DNA from: an uncultured bacterium
GTDB taxonomy: Bacteria > Bacillota > Clostridia > Lachnospirales > Lachnospiraceae
Direction of reading: 5' to 3'
Assembly: GCA_947651225.1 (NCBI GenBank)
Contig: CANSYK010000020.1
Coordinates: 1-51,160, forward strand
Length of the DNA stretch: 51,160 nt
Positions 4,209-48,863 of the stretch are shown piece by piece; positions within the stretch are counted from its first letter, which is position 1; the number at the start of each line of letters is the position of its first letter. A program made the translations under genes and the position numbers. Below the pieces are notes generated by a model. That model worked only from the letters and a program-made list of their open reading frames with translations, was not told the DNA's origin and made no database searches.

Positions 4209-4235
4209 AAAAAAGCGCCGGCTAAACCGACACTT
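4209..4235 (-). terminator. Terminator after the sensor kinase gene
   Basis: Read leftward, AGTGTCGG, a TTTA loop and CCGGCGCT pair with G-U wobbles and are followed by TTTTTT. The kinase stop codon TAG lies in the loop. This separates the two-component genes from the transporter operon, which then needs its own promoter. Confidence 0.75.
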
Positions 4236-5586
4236 CCTTAAATTCTGCTGTAAACCTCACTCCATCTCCACAATTTACAATATTATGCTCTACTCCATAC
4301 GTTTCTAAAATCATACGCAGAATATATAACCCCAGCCCACTACCTTGTGCCACATCTTTTCCGGCACGGTAAAATGCCTCATAAATATGTGGCAAATGCT
4401 CCTCTGCTATATGCGCCGGAAAATTTATAACAGAAAATACAGGTTTACCATTCTTTTTTTGGAAGGTCACGCTGACAGTTCCACCTTCAGGAGAATGTCC
4501 CACGGCATTTCCTATCGCATTGCCAAGTGCTTTTTTCAAAAGCTTCTCATTACCATGCACATAAATATTTTTTTCTATATCTGACATCAGACGGATCGAC
4601 CAAAGCTCCATCATATCACGATATTCATTTAGCAATTCTTCTATCACAGAGGAAAGCAGTACAAGACCGTCCTCTTCTCCCCCTGCCATATCAATATAGG
4701 AAACTGACAGGATTTCTTTTATAAAACCATTTAATGACTGCAAGATTTGGGCAGAACGAGCAAGGTATTTTTCTCTGTCTTTATAAACTCCGATTCCTGC
4801 CTGCATACCTTCAAGCTGTCCGATAACTATTGCAATCGGTGTTTTTAATTCGTGAGATACCCCTGAAAAGAAAAGCATGCGCCTGCGTTCCCTCTCCTTT
4901 TCAAAAGTAATTTCATCTGCAAGCAGGGCATTTTGGCCACTCAGCTCCGTCAGTGCCTTATGAAGCCTGTCAGACAATTCATTAATACTTTTTGACAATT
5001 CGCCAATTTCGTCATCGCGGACATCTGGGCAATACCAGCTAAAATCCAGATTTGCAATCCGGTAAGCAATCTTACTGATACGGATAATCGGACGCGTTGT
5101 ATAATGCGAAAAAAATAATGCGCATAAAAATGATAAAGCAAGTATGCTCCCACCAACAAATGGCAGGCTTTTCCACGCCGCATTTATTATCTCCCTCGTA
5201 TGTGCAGGATTGTAGCTTACCATAAGAATATATTCGTCATCTGAATCGGCAAAACGAAAGGGATACTCTGTTTTTCCTGTTTGCGTCTGCTGTTTTCCTT
5301 TCTTGTTCATAAAGGTAAATAAGCTGATTTCCTCATAGCTGCTATTCACTAATTTTAAATCCGCACCACTTTCCTGGATAAAGGATAAAAACAAATCCTC
5401 GCTTTCTGATGCCTTTCCCGTTCTAAGCCTGGCAACCAACATTTCCGCCTTCTCCTGCAAATGACGGCGCGACTGCTTTTCATTTGCAGCCGGAAGAAAA
5501 ATTCCAACAAAAACATACGACAAAACACTGACAATAAGGCAGAGTGCCAGAAGCATAAAAAAAGTTTTCTGTGTTAATTTTTTCAT
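4222..5586 (-). CDS. Two-component sensor histidine kinase (HAMP, HisKA, HATPase)
   Basis: 454 residues. Membrane segments lie at about 9-31 and 143-161, enclosing an extracytoplasmic sensor domain of about 110 residues. A HAMP linker follows (about 162-215), then the phospho-acceptor H245 in FFSGVSHELKTP, an N box (NAIGNAVGHS) and a G box (GSGLGLYIL). The protein is therefore a complete orthodox kinase. It is transcribed after the response regulator, but a 76-bp two-hairpin repeat separates the two genes. No strong ribosome site lies between that repeat and the ATG; the good AAGGAG lies on the other side of the repeat. The target is probably the ABC operon downstream. Confidence 0.92.
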   Translation of the reverse strand: MKKLTQKTFFMLLALCLIVSVLSYVFVGIFLPAANEKQSRRHLQEKAEMLVARLRTGKASESEDLFLSFIQESGADLKLVNSSYEEISLFTFMNKKGKQQTQTGKTEYPFRFADSDDEYILMVSYNPAHTREIINAAWKSLPFVGGSILALSFLCALFFSHYTTRPIIRISKIAYRIANLDFSWYCPDVRDDEIGELSKSINELSDRLHKALTELSGQNALLADEITFEKERERRRMLFFSGVSHELKTPIAIVIGQLEGMQAGIGVYKDREKYLARSAQILQSLNGFIKEILSVSYIDMAGGEEDGLVLLSSVIEELLNEYRDMMELWSIRLMSDIEKNIYVHGNEKLLKKALGNAIGNAVGHSPEGGTVSVTFQKKNGKPVFSVINFPAHIAEEHLPHIYEAFYRAGKDVAQGSGLGLYILRMILETYGVEHNIVNCGDGVRFTAEFKEVSV

Positions 5587-5594
5587 TTATATAT

Positions 5595-5670
5595 CCCGTC
5601 TTTCTCAATTTTGAATGCCCTCTCAAAATTGAGAAAGCATTAATAAGTAGTTTGAAAGGAATTTTCAAAC
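5595..5670 (-). repeat. Two-hairpin element, copy 1 (between response regulator and kinase)
   Basis: Read leftward: hairpin 1 is GTTTGAAAA...CTTTCAAAC and hairpin 2 is CTTTCTCAATTTTGA...TCAAAATTGAGAAAG, followed by GACGGG. Its GTTTGA end supplies the TGA stop of the response regulator gene. AAGGAG (5674-5679) lies just before it and the kinase ATG 8 nt after it. It is nearly identical to the copies at 45397-45472 and 48198-48275. Confidence 0.9.
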
Positions 5671-6345
5671 TTTCTCCTTATCCACACATTTTTGTAGCTT
5701 ATACCCCACACCCCGGACTGTTTCAATACATTCCTCTTCTCCTAATTTTTTCCTGATATTCTTAATGTGGGTGTCCACAATTCTTGTATCTCCATAAAAC
5801 TCATATCCCCACAGCTTTGCAAGCAGTGACTCTCTGGTTACCACTGTACCTGGCACCTGCATCAGTTCTAATAAAATTTCATACTCCCGCAGTGTAAAAT
5901 CAACACTTTTTCCAGCAACAGTTACAGTATGCCCTTTTAAATCTAATGAAATATTATGATAGTTCAGGCAGTCTATCCCGAAATGCTGCGTCCGTCTTAG
6001 TACAGCCGCTACCTTAAGCAGCAAGACCGTCATGGATATAGGCTTTGTAATATAATCATCAATATACAGGTTATATCCCCTTATCTGATGCTCCTCACTA
6101 TCAAGTGCCGTAAGCATAATTACAGGAACATCAGAATCCTTGCGGAGCATCTCACAGACACCATACCCATCAATGATTGGAAGCCGCAAATCCAATAGCA
6201 CCAAATCAAAATCATATTTTCTGGCAAGCTCCAGAGCCTCTGCTCCATCCGTCGCTGCTATTACCCTATACTCTACACTTTCTAAAAAATTCACAAGAAG
6301 CTCCCTGTAATCAGGATTATCCTCCACAACGAGAATCAATGCCAT
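5665..6345 (-). CDS. OmpR/PhoB-family response regulator
   Basis: 226 residues. The receiver domain carries acidic residues near E8/D9, the phospho-acceptor D52 in LVLLDLRLP, T79 and K101 (YITKP). A winged-helix DNA-binding domain follows (FTLREYEILLELM to TRIVDTHIKNIRKKL to RGVGYKL). GGAGGTGG 3-5 nt before ATG-GCA fixes the start; a much longer frame upstream runs through the rnf terminator and is not credible. Downstream it is joined to the kinase through a repeat element that forms its stop codon. The 11-bp boxes at 4123-4166 are its likely target. Confidence 0.92.
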   Translation of the reverse strand: MALILVVEDNPDYRELLVNFLESVEYRVIAATDGAEALELARKYDFDLVLLDLRLPIIDGYGVCEMLRKDSDVPVIMLTALDSEEHQIRGYNLYIDDYITKPISMTVLLLKVAAVLRRTQHFGIDCLNYHNISLDLKGHTVTVAGKSVDFTLREYEILLELMQVPGTVVTRESLLAKLWGYEFYGDTRIVDTHIKNIRKKLGEEECIETVRGVGYKLQKCVDKEKV

Positions 6346-6370
6346 ATGCCACCTCCGGTAATCTGTTAAG

Positions 6371-6408
6371 AAAAGAGCAGATGCCATACCCTGCGCACCT
6401 GCTCTTTT
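6371..6408 (-). terminator. Terminator after rnfB
   Basis: AAAAGAGCAG and CTGCTCTTTT form a 10-bp stem with an 18-nt loop between rnfB and the response regulator start. The T-run lies inside the stem, so termination may be partial, and read-through from rnf into the two-component genes is possible. Confidence 0.55.
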
Positions 6409-6436
6409 TCCAAATATTCTTTTTTGAGAATTAAAA

Positions 6437-7228
6437 TTAATGTGCCAGAATAACCTTTTTCGGACACTTTGCAGCACATGCGCCACAACCCGTACATTTA
6501 CTCTGGTCAATATGTGCAATATTATTTTCTACAGTAATTGCCCCTGCTTCACACTGCTTTGCACAGATACCGCATCCAATACAACCGGTATCGCACACTG
6601 CCATAACCTTTGGCCCTTTATCCTTATTAGAACAGGACACACCAAATTTTGCATCATATGGTACCAATTCAATCAGTCCATTTGGACACTCTTCAATACA
6701 TTTTCCACAGGCTACACAGTGCTCTTTGTCAACAACTGCGATACCCTGCTGCACATGGATTGCATCAAACTGGCAGGCAGCCACACAGGAACCAAAACCC
6801 ATACATCCAAAAGAACATGCCTTATCACCACGCCCCGGAATTGCCGCTGCACGCTTACAGTCAGAAATTCCATAATAATTCGCCTTAATACCGGCTTTTG
6901 CACAGGTTCCAGCACATTTTACAAATGCTACCATCTTTACGGCTTCACCACCGTCAACACCCATTACTTCACCGATTTTAGATGCTACTGCCGCACCACC
7001 AACCGGGCAGGCATTTACTGCCGCCTCGCCTGCAGCAATTGCTTTTGCCAGAGCGTCACAACCTGCATAGCCGCAGCCACCACAGTTATTACCTGGCAAA
7101 AACTCACGGACAGCAATTTCTTTTTCATCTATCGGTACTTCAAACTGAATTGCGGCAAATCCGAGAAGAAGGGCAATGAGAAGTCCCGTAACACCAATTA
7201 CTGCTGCTGCAATGATTACTTGTGTCAT
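6437..7228 (-). CDS. rnfB: Rnf complex subunit B, multi-FeS ferredoxin subunit
   Basis: 263 residues. An N-terminal membrane anchor (about 4-28) is followed by the four-Cys FeS motif NNCGGCGYAGC (C49, C52, C57) with C74. Next come several CxxCxxCxxxCP ferredoxin repeats in the C-terminal half (for example CVACGKCIEECP, CIGCGICAKQCE and CTGCGACAAKCP). RnfB is the entry point for electrons from reduced ferredoxin in the Na+/H+-translocating ferredoxin:NAD+ oxidoreductase. It is last in the operon, 15 bp after rnfA, as in other clostridial rnfCDGEAB operons. Confidence 0.96.
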   Translation of the reverse strand: MTQVIIAAAVIGVTGLLIALLLGFAAIQFEVPIDEKEIAVREFLPGNNCGGCGYAGCDALAKAIAAGEAAVNACPVGGAAVASKIGEVMGVDGGEAVKMVAFVKCAGTCAKAGIKANYYGISDCKRAAAIPGRGDKACSFGCMGFGSCVAACQFDAIHVQQGIAVVDKEHCVACGKCIEECPNGLIELVPYDAKFGVSCSNKDKGPKVMAVCDTGCIGCGICAKQCEAGAITVENNIAHIDQSKCTGCGACAAKCPKKVILAH

Positions 7229-36953: not shown

Positions 36954-38111
36954 CTATTGTGCCTGAAAAGAATAATGCACCTCAAAATCCCCTTTCTTCC
37001 ACTTTTCCGTGTCCAAAACAGTCCAGCCGTTTTCATCGATTGCATAGGTTACATGGTCATAGGCCGCCAGAAAAATAAGCGGTGTTTTCCCAATCCATTC
37101 CAGGGAACCATCCTTATCACAAATATAATAATCGGAATTCTCATTGTCTTCTGCAACCTGCCTTACAACGGCCTTCTCCCCTGTAAGCCTGCTTGTCACA
37201 TTATAAATCCGTTCCCCTTCTTTGATGGTTTTTGTTTTCTTTGTTTCAGGAAAATATGCCTGCAGCCCCTCTTCTGTGGAATACAGCACCATATCCCCCA
37301 TTCCTGTCACCCCAGAAACGGAAACAGATATCTTATCTGCAATATATTCTGCCTCACCACCCTCTAGCGGCACTCTGTACAACTCCATCACTTGTGCCAA
37401 AGCCTCATCGGATTCCTCTGCCTCCTGCTGCATGATTTCTTCCTCCGAAAGCGGGCTGTAGCTTCTGCAAAAATAAATGTCACCATCTATCACATCTAAC
37501 GAAGACACCAGGTTTGCCCATGCTGTTGCATGGTATATCTTCTTCCCCTCCTTTGTCTTTCTGTTATATACATAAATCCCTGCCTCCCTGTTGTTTATCT
37601 CCTCCCTTTTTTCCCAATCAAATCCATTCATATATGCAATAATGATATAATCTTCATAATAGGCGATTGCCTGTGGCGACTGAGCCCCTTCAAAATCTGC
37701 CAGCTTTTTCCTGTTGCTGCCATTAATATCACATTCTGTCAGGTTTAATGACTTTAGTTCCTGCTCCTCACTGTTACTGACGTAATACAGCTTTTCCCCA
37801 TCATATACAATGCCTGTACAATACAACGCTTCTAACTTTGCCGGACAGGAGATATCCTCATGGCTGCAGCCCGCTTTGGTGCAGATCGAGACCTCCCTCC
37901 CTGTTTCCGCATCCAGATAGCTGATTCCATCATTCCCATAATAAAATACACCGTTATCGGAATAATTGAGGTTTCCAAACATTGTCGGACAATATCGGTC
38001 ATTTAACGAATCCGTCGCCTCTTTGCTGCTCCGATAAGAAAAAACACCTGCTGCCACGGCCAAAGCTGCGGCAAGGACTGCCGCACCCATGATTATTTTT
38101 CCTTTTTTCAT
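36954..38111 (-). CDS. Membrane-anchored propeller-like protein, function unknown
   Basis: 385 residues. An N-terminal hydrophobic anchor (about 7-26) lacks a lipobox Cys. The rest has repeated strand motifs such as DNGVFYYGNDG, DGEKLYYVSNS, YEDYIIIAY and DGDIYFCRS, spaced 40-50 residues apart as in DUF5050-type propellers. A Cys motif CTKAGCSHEDISC lies near 77-89 and could bind metal or form disulfides. The gene starts right after two-hairpin element copy 2, and the nearest G-rich ribosome-site candidate lies before that element. It follows the solute-binding-like gene, so it is probably part of the same surface system. Confidence 0.7.
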   Translation of the reverse strand: MKKGKIIMGAAVLAAALAVAAGVFSYRSSKEATDSLNDRYCPTMFGNLNYSDNGVFYYGNDGISYLDAETGREVSICTKAGCSHEDISCPAKLEALYCTGIVYDGEKLYYVSNSEEQELKSLNLTECDINGSNRKKLADFEGAQSPQAIAYYEDYIIIAYMNGFDWEKREEINNREAGIYVYNRKTKEGKKIYHATAWANLVSSLDVIDGDIYFCRSYSPLSEEEIMQQEAEESDEALAQVMELYRVPLEGGEAEYIADKISVSVSGVTGMGDMVLYSTEEGLQAYFPETKKTKTIKEGERIYNVTSRLTGEKAVVRQVAEDNENSDYYICDKDGSLEWIGKTPLIFLAAYDHVTYAIDENGWTVLDTEKWKKGDFEVHYSFQAQ

Positions 38112-38123
38112 CTTTATACACAG

Positions 38124-38196
38124 CCTTTCTTAATTTTGAATGCTCTTCTTAAAATTGAGAAAACACGAATGAATCGTTTGAAAGGAACTTTCAGAC
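38124..38196 (-). repeat. Two-hairpin element, copy 2 (divergent)
   Basis: Same two hairpins as copy 1 but with several substitutions, mostly keeping the pairing of hairpin 2 (TCTCAATTTTAAGAAGAGCA and so on). GGGGTGA, including the upstream gene's stop codon, precedes it and the ATG of the propeller-like gene follows 12 nt after it. Confidence 0.8.
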
Positions 38197-38201
38197 TTTT
38201 T

Positions 38202-39964: not shown

Positions 39965-40372
39965 CTATCTTCTGATATATTCTACAGATGTCTTATCAGA
40001 CCATGTACCTGTCCTAATTGCTGCGGAATGTGTCGTATCTAACCTCTTCATAAAATCCTCATCGTACACTGTAAAAGTCTTTGTGACACTGTTTGTCCCT
40101 GTTTTAATATCTGACATTGTTTTGTCTGTGCCCGTACTAACGTCACGATATTTATTTTTACAATTAACTTTAACTGTCCCTTCCCCAGCACCTCCCATAT
40201 GGGAGGTAGTTGTTGTAGCTGTCTGTTCCGTTATCAGAGCCGAACCAACTACACCGATGCCACTACACTTACTACTAACCGTAGCTGTTTCAGCCGCTGA
40301 TGCAGTAGCTCCTACAGCGCTGACAAGAACAGCTCCACACAATAATCCGCCTACAATCTTTTTTATTATCAT
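39965..40372 (-). CDS. Small secreted Thr/Ser-rich protein, function unknown
   Basis: 135 residues. A clear Sec signal (MIIKKIVGGLLCGAVLVSAV, cleavage after ASA near 27) precedes a mature part of about 108 residues. It is rich in Thr and Ser with two cysteines (about 35 and 71) and alternating strand-like stretches, ending THSAAIRTGTWSDKTSVEYIRR-like (only partly quoted here: HSAAIRTGTWSDKTSVEY). It lies between LytTR two-component genes and an ABC-2 transporter, the usual place for a secreted signal or bacteriocin-like peptide, but no known family was recognised. Element copy 3 separates its AAGGAG site from the ATG. Confidence 0.7.
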   Translation of the reverse strand: MIIKKIVGGLLCGAVLVSAVGATASAAETATVSSKCSGIGVVGSALITEQTATTTTSHMGGAGEGTVKVNCKNKYRDVSTGTDKTMSDIKTGTNSVTKTFTVYDEDFMKRLDTTHSAAIRTGTWSDKTSVEYIRR

Positions 40373-40383
40373 ATTTATAACCT

Positions 40384-40457
40384 GACTTTCTTAATTTTGA
40401 ATGCTCTCCCCTAAATTGAGAAAGCATTAATGAGTAGTTTGAAGGAAACTTTCAAAC
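40384..40457 (-). repeat. Two-hairpin element, copy 3
   Basis: GTTTGAAAGTTTCCTTCAAAC and a second hairpin CTTTCTCAATTTAG...CAAAATTAAGAAAG lie directly before the secreted-protein ATG. AAGGAG lies 8 nt before the element. The reading frame across the element is broken by TAG here, unlike in copies 1, 4 and 5. Confidence 0.85.
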
Positions 40458-40471
40458 TTAATCTCCTTATG

Positions 40472-45366: not shown

Positions 45367-45396
45367 TCATGCTTTAGAAAAACTTCATATCTATAT

Positions 45397-45472
45397 CCCG
45401 TCTTTCTCAATTTTGAATGCCCTCTCAAAATTGAGAAAGCATTAATAAGTAGTTTGAAAGGAACTCTCAAAC
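45397..45472 (-). repeat. Two-hairpin element, copy 4 (after metF)
   Basis: Almost identical to copy 1. Its GTTTGA end provides the TGA stop of metF. The other end points toward GH13's terminator; only a four-codon frame (ATG-AAG-TTT-TTC-TAA) follows, so this copy has lost or never had a downstream gene. Confidence 0.9.
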
Positions 45473-46321
45473 TTTTGCCACAATCTCCTCTACCATTTTC
45501 GGACGGTTCATGGTATAGATATGAATCCCATCTACGCCATGTTCTTTTAAGGCAAGAATCTGGCGGATTGCATAATCAATTCCAGCTTTCCTCATTTCCT
45601 CTGGTTTCTCGCCATAGTTGGCAATCATGTCAGACAGTTCTTTCGGGACAAAAGAACCAGAAAGGCTGACGCTTGTACCAATCTGCTTTGCAGATGTAAC
45701 CGGCATAATTCCCGCACAGATTGGAACGGTGATTCCAATATCTGCAGCCCGTTCCTGAAAATCGTAAAAGACATCATTGTTAAAAAAGAGCTGGGAAATA
45801 AGAAATTCTGCGCCAGTATCTACTTTTTCCTTTAAATGCTGTAAATCAGTTTCAAAGCTTTCCGCTTCATAATGTTTTTCGGGATAGCAGGCACCGGCAA
45901 TTTTTAGGGCAGTATGTTCTTTTAAATAACGTACCATATCTGCCGCATAGAAAAATTCTCTGTTCTGAAACTGTTCATCGGTCATTGTTTTCGGTCTGTC
46001 ACCACGAAGTGCCAGCACATGCTGAATTCCTTCTTTTTCTAACATTTTGCAGTTTTCTTCTAAGTCAGATTTTTGAAAACCAACACAGGTCATATGGGCG
46101 ATTGCGTCAATATGAAGTGTATTTTGAATATAAGATGAAATTTCTGCTGTTTTGCCGGATTTTGAACCTCCTGCACCATAAGTACAGCTTATAAAATCAG
46201 GCCGCAGAGCAGCAAGTGCGTCCAGTTTGCCATAAATTTCCTGAAATTCGTCCTCTGTTTTTGGAGGGAAAACCTCAAAGGAAAGGCTTGTTTTTGTCTT
46301 AGCCAGTAAATCTTTTATCAT
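45467..46321 (-). CDS. metF: Methylenetetrahydrofolate reductase
   Basis: 284 residues. The FAD-binding TIM barrel has SLSFEVFPPKTEDE (about 12-25), FISCTYGAGGS (about 40-50), HMTCVG (about 78-83), LALRGDRP (about 104-111) and LISQLFFNND (about 183-192). It reduces 5,10-methylene-THF to 5-methyl-THF for methionine synthesis and one-carbon flow. GAGGAAACT precedes the ATG. The stop codon is formed by a repeat element. A homocysteine methyltransferase gene starts 4.8 kb to the right. Confidence 0.95.
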   Translation of the reverse strand: MIKDLLAKTKTSLSFEVFPPKTEDEFQEIYGKLDALAALRPDFISCTYGAGGSKSGKTAEISSYIQNTLHIDAIAHMTCVGFQKSDLEENCKMLEKEGIQHVLALRGDRPKTMTDEQFQNREFFYAADMVRYLKEHTALKIAGACYPEKHYEAESFETDLQHLKEKVDTGAEFLISQLFFNNDVFYDFQERAADIGITVPICAGIMPVTSAKQIGTSVSLSGSFVPKELSDMIANYGEKPEEMRKAGIDYAIRQILALKEHGVDGIHIYTMNRPKMVEEIVAKV

Positions 46322-48159: not shown

Positions 48160-48197
48160 GAGGAATGGTTTTAGTTGATTGCATATACAAGGAGGAA

Positions 48198-48275
48198 GTT
48201 TGAAAGTTCTTTTCAAACGACTTATTAATGCTTTCTCAATTTTGAGAGGGCATTCAAAATTGAGAAAGACGGGGG
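48198..48275 (+). repeat. Two-hairpin element, copy 5 (clearest case)
   Basis: GTTTGAAAGTTCTTTTCAAAC, then CTTTCTCAATTTTGA...TCAAAATTGAGAAAG and GACGGG. The perfect ribosome site AAGGAGG ends 2 nt before the element, while the lipoprotein ATG lies 6 nt after it, about 86 nt away from that site. Confidence 0.9.
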
Positions 48276-48281
48276 ATAAAA

Positions 48282-48863
48282 ATGAAAAAGAAATTGTTAT
48301 TATTGACACTCTGTACTACATTACTTTTTACTGGCTGTGCTGGCGGGAATTTAGCAAAAACAGTGAAGAAGGTTACAGATTCTGTTGCAACGCAAACACC
48401 GGAGCCGACGCCAGAGCCAACACCAGCACCAAAAGTAAAGAAACTTGCACTTGGCAAAAAAGGGACGGTTGGTGACTGGAAAATCTGTGTAAAAAAGGCA
48501 GTGGTTAAAACGCAGATTAAAAATGGAAGTTATTATTATTTTAAGCCAAGTAAGGGCAATAAATTTGTGCATCTTACAATGAGTGTTAAAAATAATGGTA
48601 AGAAAGAAGCAGAGTTTCTTCCACGCATTGGCTATGAAAATGAAATGATTACGGCAACTCTTTGCTATAAAGATGATTATGAATATAAACCTACAGAATT
48701 GCTTTCTTATGATAAGGATTTGACAACAAAAAAGATAAAGCCCTTAGCAAGTGAAAGTGGTATTCTTGTTTTTGAGGTTCCGAAAAAAGTTGCCAAAGAA
48801 AAAAAGAAGATGGTTGTAAAAATTGGAACGACGATGGATTATCTGGAGTATACGTTGAAATAA
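48282..48863 (+). CDS. Lipoprotein with DUF4352-like domain
   Basis: 193 residues. The signal sequence ends in the lipobox LFTGC (Cys19). A Pro/Glu/Thr linker (TPEPTPEPTPAP, about 39-50) spans the wall region. Residues about 55-193 resemble DUF4352-type immunoglobulin-like domains (GDWKICVKKAVVKT, FVHLTMSVKNNGKKEAEF, ILVFEVPKKV). The function is unknown; such domains occur in surface and telomere-repeat-factor-like proteins of Firmicutes. The ATG is preceded by GGGGG and, before the repeat element, by a much better AAGGAGG. Confidence 0.8.
   Translation: MKKKLLLLTLCTTLLFTGCAGGNLAKTVKKVTDSVATQTPEPTPEPTPAPKVKKLALGKKGTVGDWKICVKKAVVKTQIKNGSYYYFKPSKGNKFVHLTMSVKNNGKKEAEFLPRIGYENEMITATLCYKDDYEYKPTELLSYDKDLTTKKIKPLASESGILVFEVPKKVAKEKKKMVVKIGTTMDYLEYTLK

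Follow-up and report, generated by a model that had tools for sequence, protein, structure and literature searches.

The stretch of DNA analyzed here (the window, 51,160 nt) lies in contig 20 of the 4.38-Mb draft genome of an uncultured Lachnospiraceae bacterium, labelled G000 below. Near its right end, a gene on the forward strand (48282-48863, +) encodes a 193-residue lipoprotein-like protein with a DUF4352 domain. It is preceded by a Shine-Dalgarno (SD) sequence, AAGGAGG (48189-48195, +), which the left-flank duplex statistics given below mark as the original one, and then by a repeated element (48196-48284, +, counted to the G of the ATG) that scores 113.4 bits with a covariance model. Within the element, hairpin 1, GTTTGAAAG/TTTTCAAAC (48198-48218, +), was recognized from the sequence and from consensus and single-copy folds, and hairpin 2 (48231-48268, +), with a 14-bp stem and a 10-nt loop, from the folds. 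An SD-like run of the element's own, GGGGG (48271-48275, +), lies 6 nt before the ATG and has a calculated binding to the anti-SD of -8.6 kcal/mol.

A sequence-only reading of the window had reported five copies of this element, and all five are real: with the unit read, aligned and placed from these copies, the covariance model finds the one above and four on the reverse strand, at 5584-5672, 38109-38198, 40370-40459 and 45386-45474 (E 1e-24 to 4e-18, with a model built partly from the same five). That reading had the five loci right but ended the element near hairpin 2, whereas the conserved unit extends to the ATG. The complete element is about 85 nt long and is spelled AAGTTTGAAAG-loop-CTTTCAAAC (hairpin 1), linker TAYTTATTAATG, hairpin 2 and a tail GRGG-TATARNN, after which comes the ATG.

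As had been claimed for four of the copies, an ATG adjoins the element, and its distance is equal in all five. The ATG of the copy at 5584-5672 (5586-5584) starts a histidine kinase gene (4222-5586); those of the copies at 38109-38198 and 40370-40459, which are diverged and have a weak right-end SD, start genes for proteins of 385 residues (36954-38111) and 135 residues (39965-40372); and that of the copy at 45386-45474, straight after the MTHFR gene (45467-46321, -), opens a 4-codon ORF only. A copy in the related genome G008 (L060) stands before a gene like that at the 40370 copy. The stop codons of MTHFR (45467-45469) and of the response regulator upstream of the kinase (5665-6519, -; TGA, 5665-5667) fall within the left end of the element, so that insertion may have changed the last codons of both genes.

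The SD-like motif said to precede the element is present at four of the window copies (AAGGAGG, AAGGAG, GGGGTGA and AAGGAG), and at the 45386 copy the left side offers only GAGGAG, 10 nt off. The description of the stretch between hairpin 2 and the ATG as a poor ribosome site is fair for two of the five copies, but a G-rich run is present 6-8 nt before the ATG. Besides the -8.6 kcal/mol at 48196, the predicted anti-SD binding of this stretch is -4.1 kcal/mol at 5584 and 45386, -3.2 at 40370 and -2.1 at 38109, against a mean of -2.1 kcal/mol in control windows.

Distribution of the element and its downstream genes

A blastn search showed about 30 copies or part-copies in G000, most alignments reaching the G of the ATG, and the covariance model (R1) found 32 copies there at an E-value of 0.001 or better. 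With one genome taken per species, R1 detected the element in 11 of 28 genomes of the genus (32, 16, 8, 8, 5, 5, 4, 3, 1, 1 and 1 copies) and gave no match in 17; as R1 is tuned to G000, copies with a different hairpin 2 may go undetected. A second model, R2, which describes the left end alone without right end or ATG, gave 71 matches in 12 of 397 genomes of the family. Three of the single matches (G396, G355 and G269) look like chance, with neither hairpin 2 nor right end visible, and were set aside; with G150:C7 also left out, 67 matches from nine Lachnospiraceae genomes were used. The matches in G335, considered as a separate repeat, turned out to be the same element on the opposite strand. 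A pattern of hairpin 1 plus linker occurs at 11 loci in named records, including Eisenbergiella porci, Robinsoniella peoriensis and CE91-St56. With regard to a phage or plasmid source, the window copy had no match and the left-end pattern was absent from the viral contigs searched, and no title or abstract describing the element was found in the open-access literature.

The genes that start at the element in G000 include thrS, gltX, gatC, ruvA, coaD and panC, beside kinases, lipoproteins and membrane proteins, and those in relatives include pheT and dxr (names assigned by eye from the N-termini). This mixture of functions rejects the earlier suggestion of an envelope gene family under shared control. 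At two G000 copies the downstream gene itself looks unusual: behind L003 (G000:C1) a permease gene appears frameshifted a few codons after its start, and at L024 (G000:C11:59736-59824), before an aspartokinase-like gene, the ATG slot reads ATAGG, with a new SD and ATG about 20 nt later.

RNA structure

Three copies were folded, two from the window and one from elsewhere in G000, and every one is predicted to form the two hairpins (z of -3.8 to -5.4 versus shuffled sequences). In the RNAalifold consensus of 23 G000 copies, double changes occur at two pairs, and at one of these in three sequences. The hairpin 2 found in G000 shares 20-35% identity with those of other lineages, but a fold at z below -2 is retained in 64 of 65 copies. 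Pairing holds for 328 of 364 cells across 28 distinct hairpin-2 arms of the GCAGTATCGCAGGC type, with the loop length picked for best pairing, and compensatory exchanges (T-A/C-G, C-G/T-A and G-C/A-T) are found; L146 was excluded from both of these statistics. By eye, linker and tail can also form a short stem, UUAU/AUAA, and its double change to UUUG/CAAA, being limited to one lineage (G335), is suggestive.

A stable fold with covariation, held at a constant place in leaders, would also be expected of a conserved cis-regulatory RNA, a switch or thermosensor governing a regulon. We consider this improbable, given that the element is patchy among species of one genus, that thrS and gltX lack it in most of the relatives whose orthologues were read, that the downstream functions are unrelated, that hairpin 2 is unrelated between lineages, and that no Rfam family matches the element above its gathering score.

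Insertion between SD and start codon

Three orthologous sites that are empty in G008 bear out the claim of an insertion between SD and start codon. At thrS, G008 reads ggaggtaaaATAAATG and G000 reads ggaggtaaa, element, ATAAATG; at an ABC transporter gene, the G008 sequence gggaggaataAGTGATG corresponds to gggaggaata, element, AGTGATG; and at gltX, ggaggaAAAAATG corresponds to ggagga, element, AAATATG. Single substitutions aside, the filled junctions differ from the empty ones by the element alone, the insertion point lies 4 nt before the ATG at all three, and no target-site duplication is visible at these sites beyond at most one ambiguous A. Since the G008 proteins start at the same Met in all three cases, no N-terminal extension was created.

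The search of related genomes that the sequence-only reading had proposed extends this preference for the SD-to-start position to nine genomes. R2, which has no right end, affords the fairer test of the ATG position, and copies found by R1 only were kept out of the count because R1 includes the ATG. Sixty-one of the 67 left ends are testable, five others running straight into another element and one lacking a right end. An ATG lies 11-14 nt past hairpin 2 in 57 of these 61 (an interval chosen after looking at the copies), compared with about 9% expected by chance, given how often ATG occurs in these loci; the exceptions are L168, L175, L179 and L146, the last of which, its anchor being hand-set, has GTG at that place. 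An ORF of at least 60 codons, or one that runs off the end of the locus, begins at 44 of the 57 ATGs; the remaining 13 open shorter frames, so that not every insertion puts a gene at stake. As the ATG occupies the same place even there, it seems to be itself part of the insertion target. At position -4, 54 of the 57 copies have A, and the two bases preceding the ATG are variable. On the other side, anti-SD binding by the 16 nt that precede the element averages -6.8 kcal/mol versus -2.1 in windows farther upstream, and 40 of 66 left flanks reach -6 kcal/mol or better, versus 31 of 335 control windows. The copies in G009 and G018, which are R1 matches outside the 67, have no clear left SD.

Evidence of movement

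Tandem copies are found in G150, G222, G085 and G335 (L170, L165, L151, L145 and L153), where an element has entered the preceding copy right after its SD, by the same rule as at genes. Together with these, the empty orthologous sites, the patchy distribution and the dispersed near-identical copies, which are the marks of a non-autonomous mobile repeat, point to movement. The ends of the element, AAGTTTG and GRGGTAT, as read from the sequence, are not inverted repeats, and it thus shows neither the terminal inverted repeats nor the target duplication of a classical MITE. An autonomous long version was considered and rejected, as a right end lies within about 100 nt of all but one (L176) of the 67 left ends; of the ORFs around L176, read by eye, none was recognized as a transposase.

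The mobilizing enzyme was not found among the two transposase types sought. Y1 (HUH) transposases are present in six of the 12 carriers searched and in genus genomes without the element, with none in the draft assemblies of G150, G085, G400, G042, G007 and G009, nor in that of G008. IS110-type DEDD transposases are above the cut-off in seven of the 12, with none in G150, G007 and G009 and only sub-cut-off matches in G085 and G400. Both are thus absent from G150 despite its 12 copies, and both were rejected as the mover, since their presence does not track the element.

Several other repeats lie near element copies. A palindromic repeat, TATAGTAAACGCAT..ATGCGTTTACTATA, was seen at L021 (G000:C60) and L027 (G000:C16), inside one element copy and, slightly altered, beside another, and a further repeat with TTTTCAAACACGCTCT or part thereof adjoins two copies, L012 and L029. 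L142, L150 and L173 (G150:C92) belong to a tandem array, spaced at 139 nt, in which the element is joined to a sibling repeat that has a different first hairpin (AAGATTGAAAATTTAAATTTTCAATC) and GCCCGC/GCGGGC as its second.

A proposed replacement ribosome-binding site

Several features can be read directly from the genomes: the three insertions into the spacer, the fixed distance to the ATG, the SD-like flank and tail, the pairing of the hairpins, the patchy spread and the tandem copies. Their best account, to which we give a probability of roughly two in three, is a mobile repeat with a replacement ribosome-binding site of its own. A small non-autonomous repeat, dispersed in Clostridia of the gut type, would enter the SD-to-ATG spacer some 4 nt upstream of the start codon, leaving no visible target-site duplication, perhaps through a recombinase that recognizes SD-spacer-start DNA. 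The gene would be separated from its original SD, and the element would end in a substitute, in most copies GRGG or GGAGG, placed 5-8 nt upstream of the gene's start codon; if ribosomes use this tail, as its sequence suggests, translation could continue from the element's own site. The element may be tolerated because its tail looks like a substitute ribosome-binding site. Movement probably requires the two hairpins, the second of which may in addition help to hold the replacement SD open. The gain in SD exposure predicted in silico is slight (SD unpaired 0.55 with the element body versus 0.48 with a shuffled one), which counts against the reading.

Most tails are GAGG or GGGG in G000 and GGAGG in G222, G306, G335 and others, and they lie 5-8 nt before the ATG. 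The mean anti-SD binding of the tail is -6.5 kcal/mol in G000, -7.0 to -11.1 in G150, G085, G400, G335, G222 and G306, and -11.6 in G194 (one copy); it is weak, -3.9, in G216 (two copies). Eleven part-copies lacking hairpin 1 were examined, eight in G000 (before gatC, ruvA, coaD, panC and others) and three in G004 (before thrS, coaD and a MATE gene), and all 11 keep the tail, at -5.4 to -8.6 kcal/mol. Three of them (L029, L030 and L046) have no SD-like motif across the 110 nt farther up. The other eight have one 36-125 nt before the ATG, some within remnants of hairpin 2, and those above L028, L048 and L218 may be the original SD.

These data bear on a mechanism proposed by the sequence-only reading, in which the ribosome would bind the original SD, and folding of both hairpins would bring that site beside the ATG. 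The left SD is often good, as the flank statistics show, and this holds for older full-length copies too, in which an idle site might have been lost, an observation that counts against a portable SD. With both hairpins and the linker-tail stem closed, moreover, only a short path would separate the SD and the ATG. That stem, however, consists of four mostly A-U pairs and would mask the initiation region; most copies end in an SD-like site at normal spacing; and part-copies without hairpin 1 still precede housekeeping genes, three of them with no upstream SD-like motif. The SD-like tail at normal spacing and its retention in every part-copy lead us to prefer a portable ribosome-binding site; the part-copies are the main argument for it, though not an airtight one. 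We regard hairpin bridging as unlikely overall, and it stays a candidate for the copies at 38109 and 40370, where the tail is near background yet the left SD is good. A comparison by eye of copies before like genes, L020 in G000 and L060 in G008, found aaggag on the left with a poor tail in one, and aagg on the left with a GCAGGG tail in the other.

Comparison with known repeats

The MIRU elements (mycobacterial interspersed repetitive units), whose target is DTGA, a start/stop overlap that becomes duplicated, are the nearest precedent. No duplication of the MIRU type was found for the element at the three empty sites, beyond the one ambiguous A. Part of a 2025 review (PMC12548453) describes MIRU as apparently mobile and inserted at start codons, where an ORF inside the repeat is coupled to the gene at a -4 nt spacing, and on that description start-codon insertion, apparent mobility and apparent harmlessness are common to both. 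By analogy, the original SD might start a short ORF at the TTG of AAGTTTG, which would deliver ribosomes to the ATG; the left SD is indeed at start-codon distance from this TTG, and 30 of 57 copies keep the frame open to the ATG, 8 of them in frame with it and 22 not. The frame stops within the element in 22 of the 57, however, the TTG is missing in 5, and the 22 out-of-frame copies have their stops 1 to 1385 nt beyond the ATG, one alone at +1. The internal frame is thus not conserved as a coupled ORF would be, and we reject such coupling as very improbable. Unlike MIRU, the element occupies the SD spacer and brings in an SD-like site.

Hairpins between SD and AUG are known from phage mRNAs of the T4 gene 38 type. 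These resemble the element in placing structure between SD and start codon; unlike them, the element is a dispersed repeat with a second SD-like site past the hairpins. REP/RAYT repeats, in the part of PMC3733652 that treats them, are short palindromic repeats with many copies, hypothesized to be mobilized in trans, and in these respects are like the element. Their palindromes, however, are GTAG- or CGTC-tagged and the ends of the element show neither; its copies sit at start codons, and Y1 transposases do not follow its distribution. The pneumococcal BOX, RUP and SPRITE repeats, taken as parasitic in the passages of PMC3049150 that concern them, share with the element an interspersed, clustered and nested habit, but those passages describe no fixed SD-to-ATG position or built-in SD.

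Implications

If its two ends are joined, the sequence across the junction is GRGGTAT|AAGTTTG. This resembles an SD, spacer and start codon and also the targets of the element, for example GGAGGAATA|AGTGATG, and a recombinase could therefore use the ribosome-binding site as its attachment site. Another, more abundant repeat also has a tail with a built-in SD, GCAGAAATGRGG-N3-7-ATG, which was found at L245-L274 and further loci in 28 of 28 genomes of the genus, from 1 to 89 times (89 in G042), with the pattern GCAGAAATGRGGN{3,7}ATG; the reversed pattern occurred 0 or 1 times. In nine of 10 instances of GCAGAAATGRGG in loci fetched for other reasons, an ATG follows 3-8 nt later and begins an ORF of at least 60 codons. 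Upstream of this tail there is sometimes TTTGTGTCTGTGCG or a variable hairpin. We suggest, as a tentative possibility, a class of mobile elements that integrates at the translation start signal, the recombinase treating the ribosome-binding site as its attachment site and leaving a working one behind, and the second repeat tail would belong to the same class.

Bacterial genomes offer mobile DNA little neutral space. If our reading is true, supplying a substitute SD within the SD-to-ATG spacer of housekeeping genes would be a distinct route to harmless insertion, translation rates would be altered gene by gene, and recognizing ribosome sites as DNA would be an unusual way to choose a target. 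In practice, start-site calls and operon readings in the Lachnospiraceae would be affected, and the elements would offer a set of natural ribosome-site cassettes.
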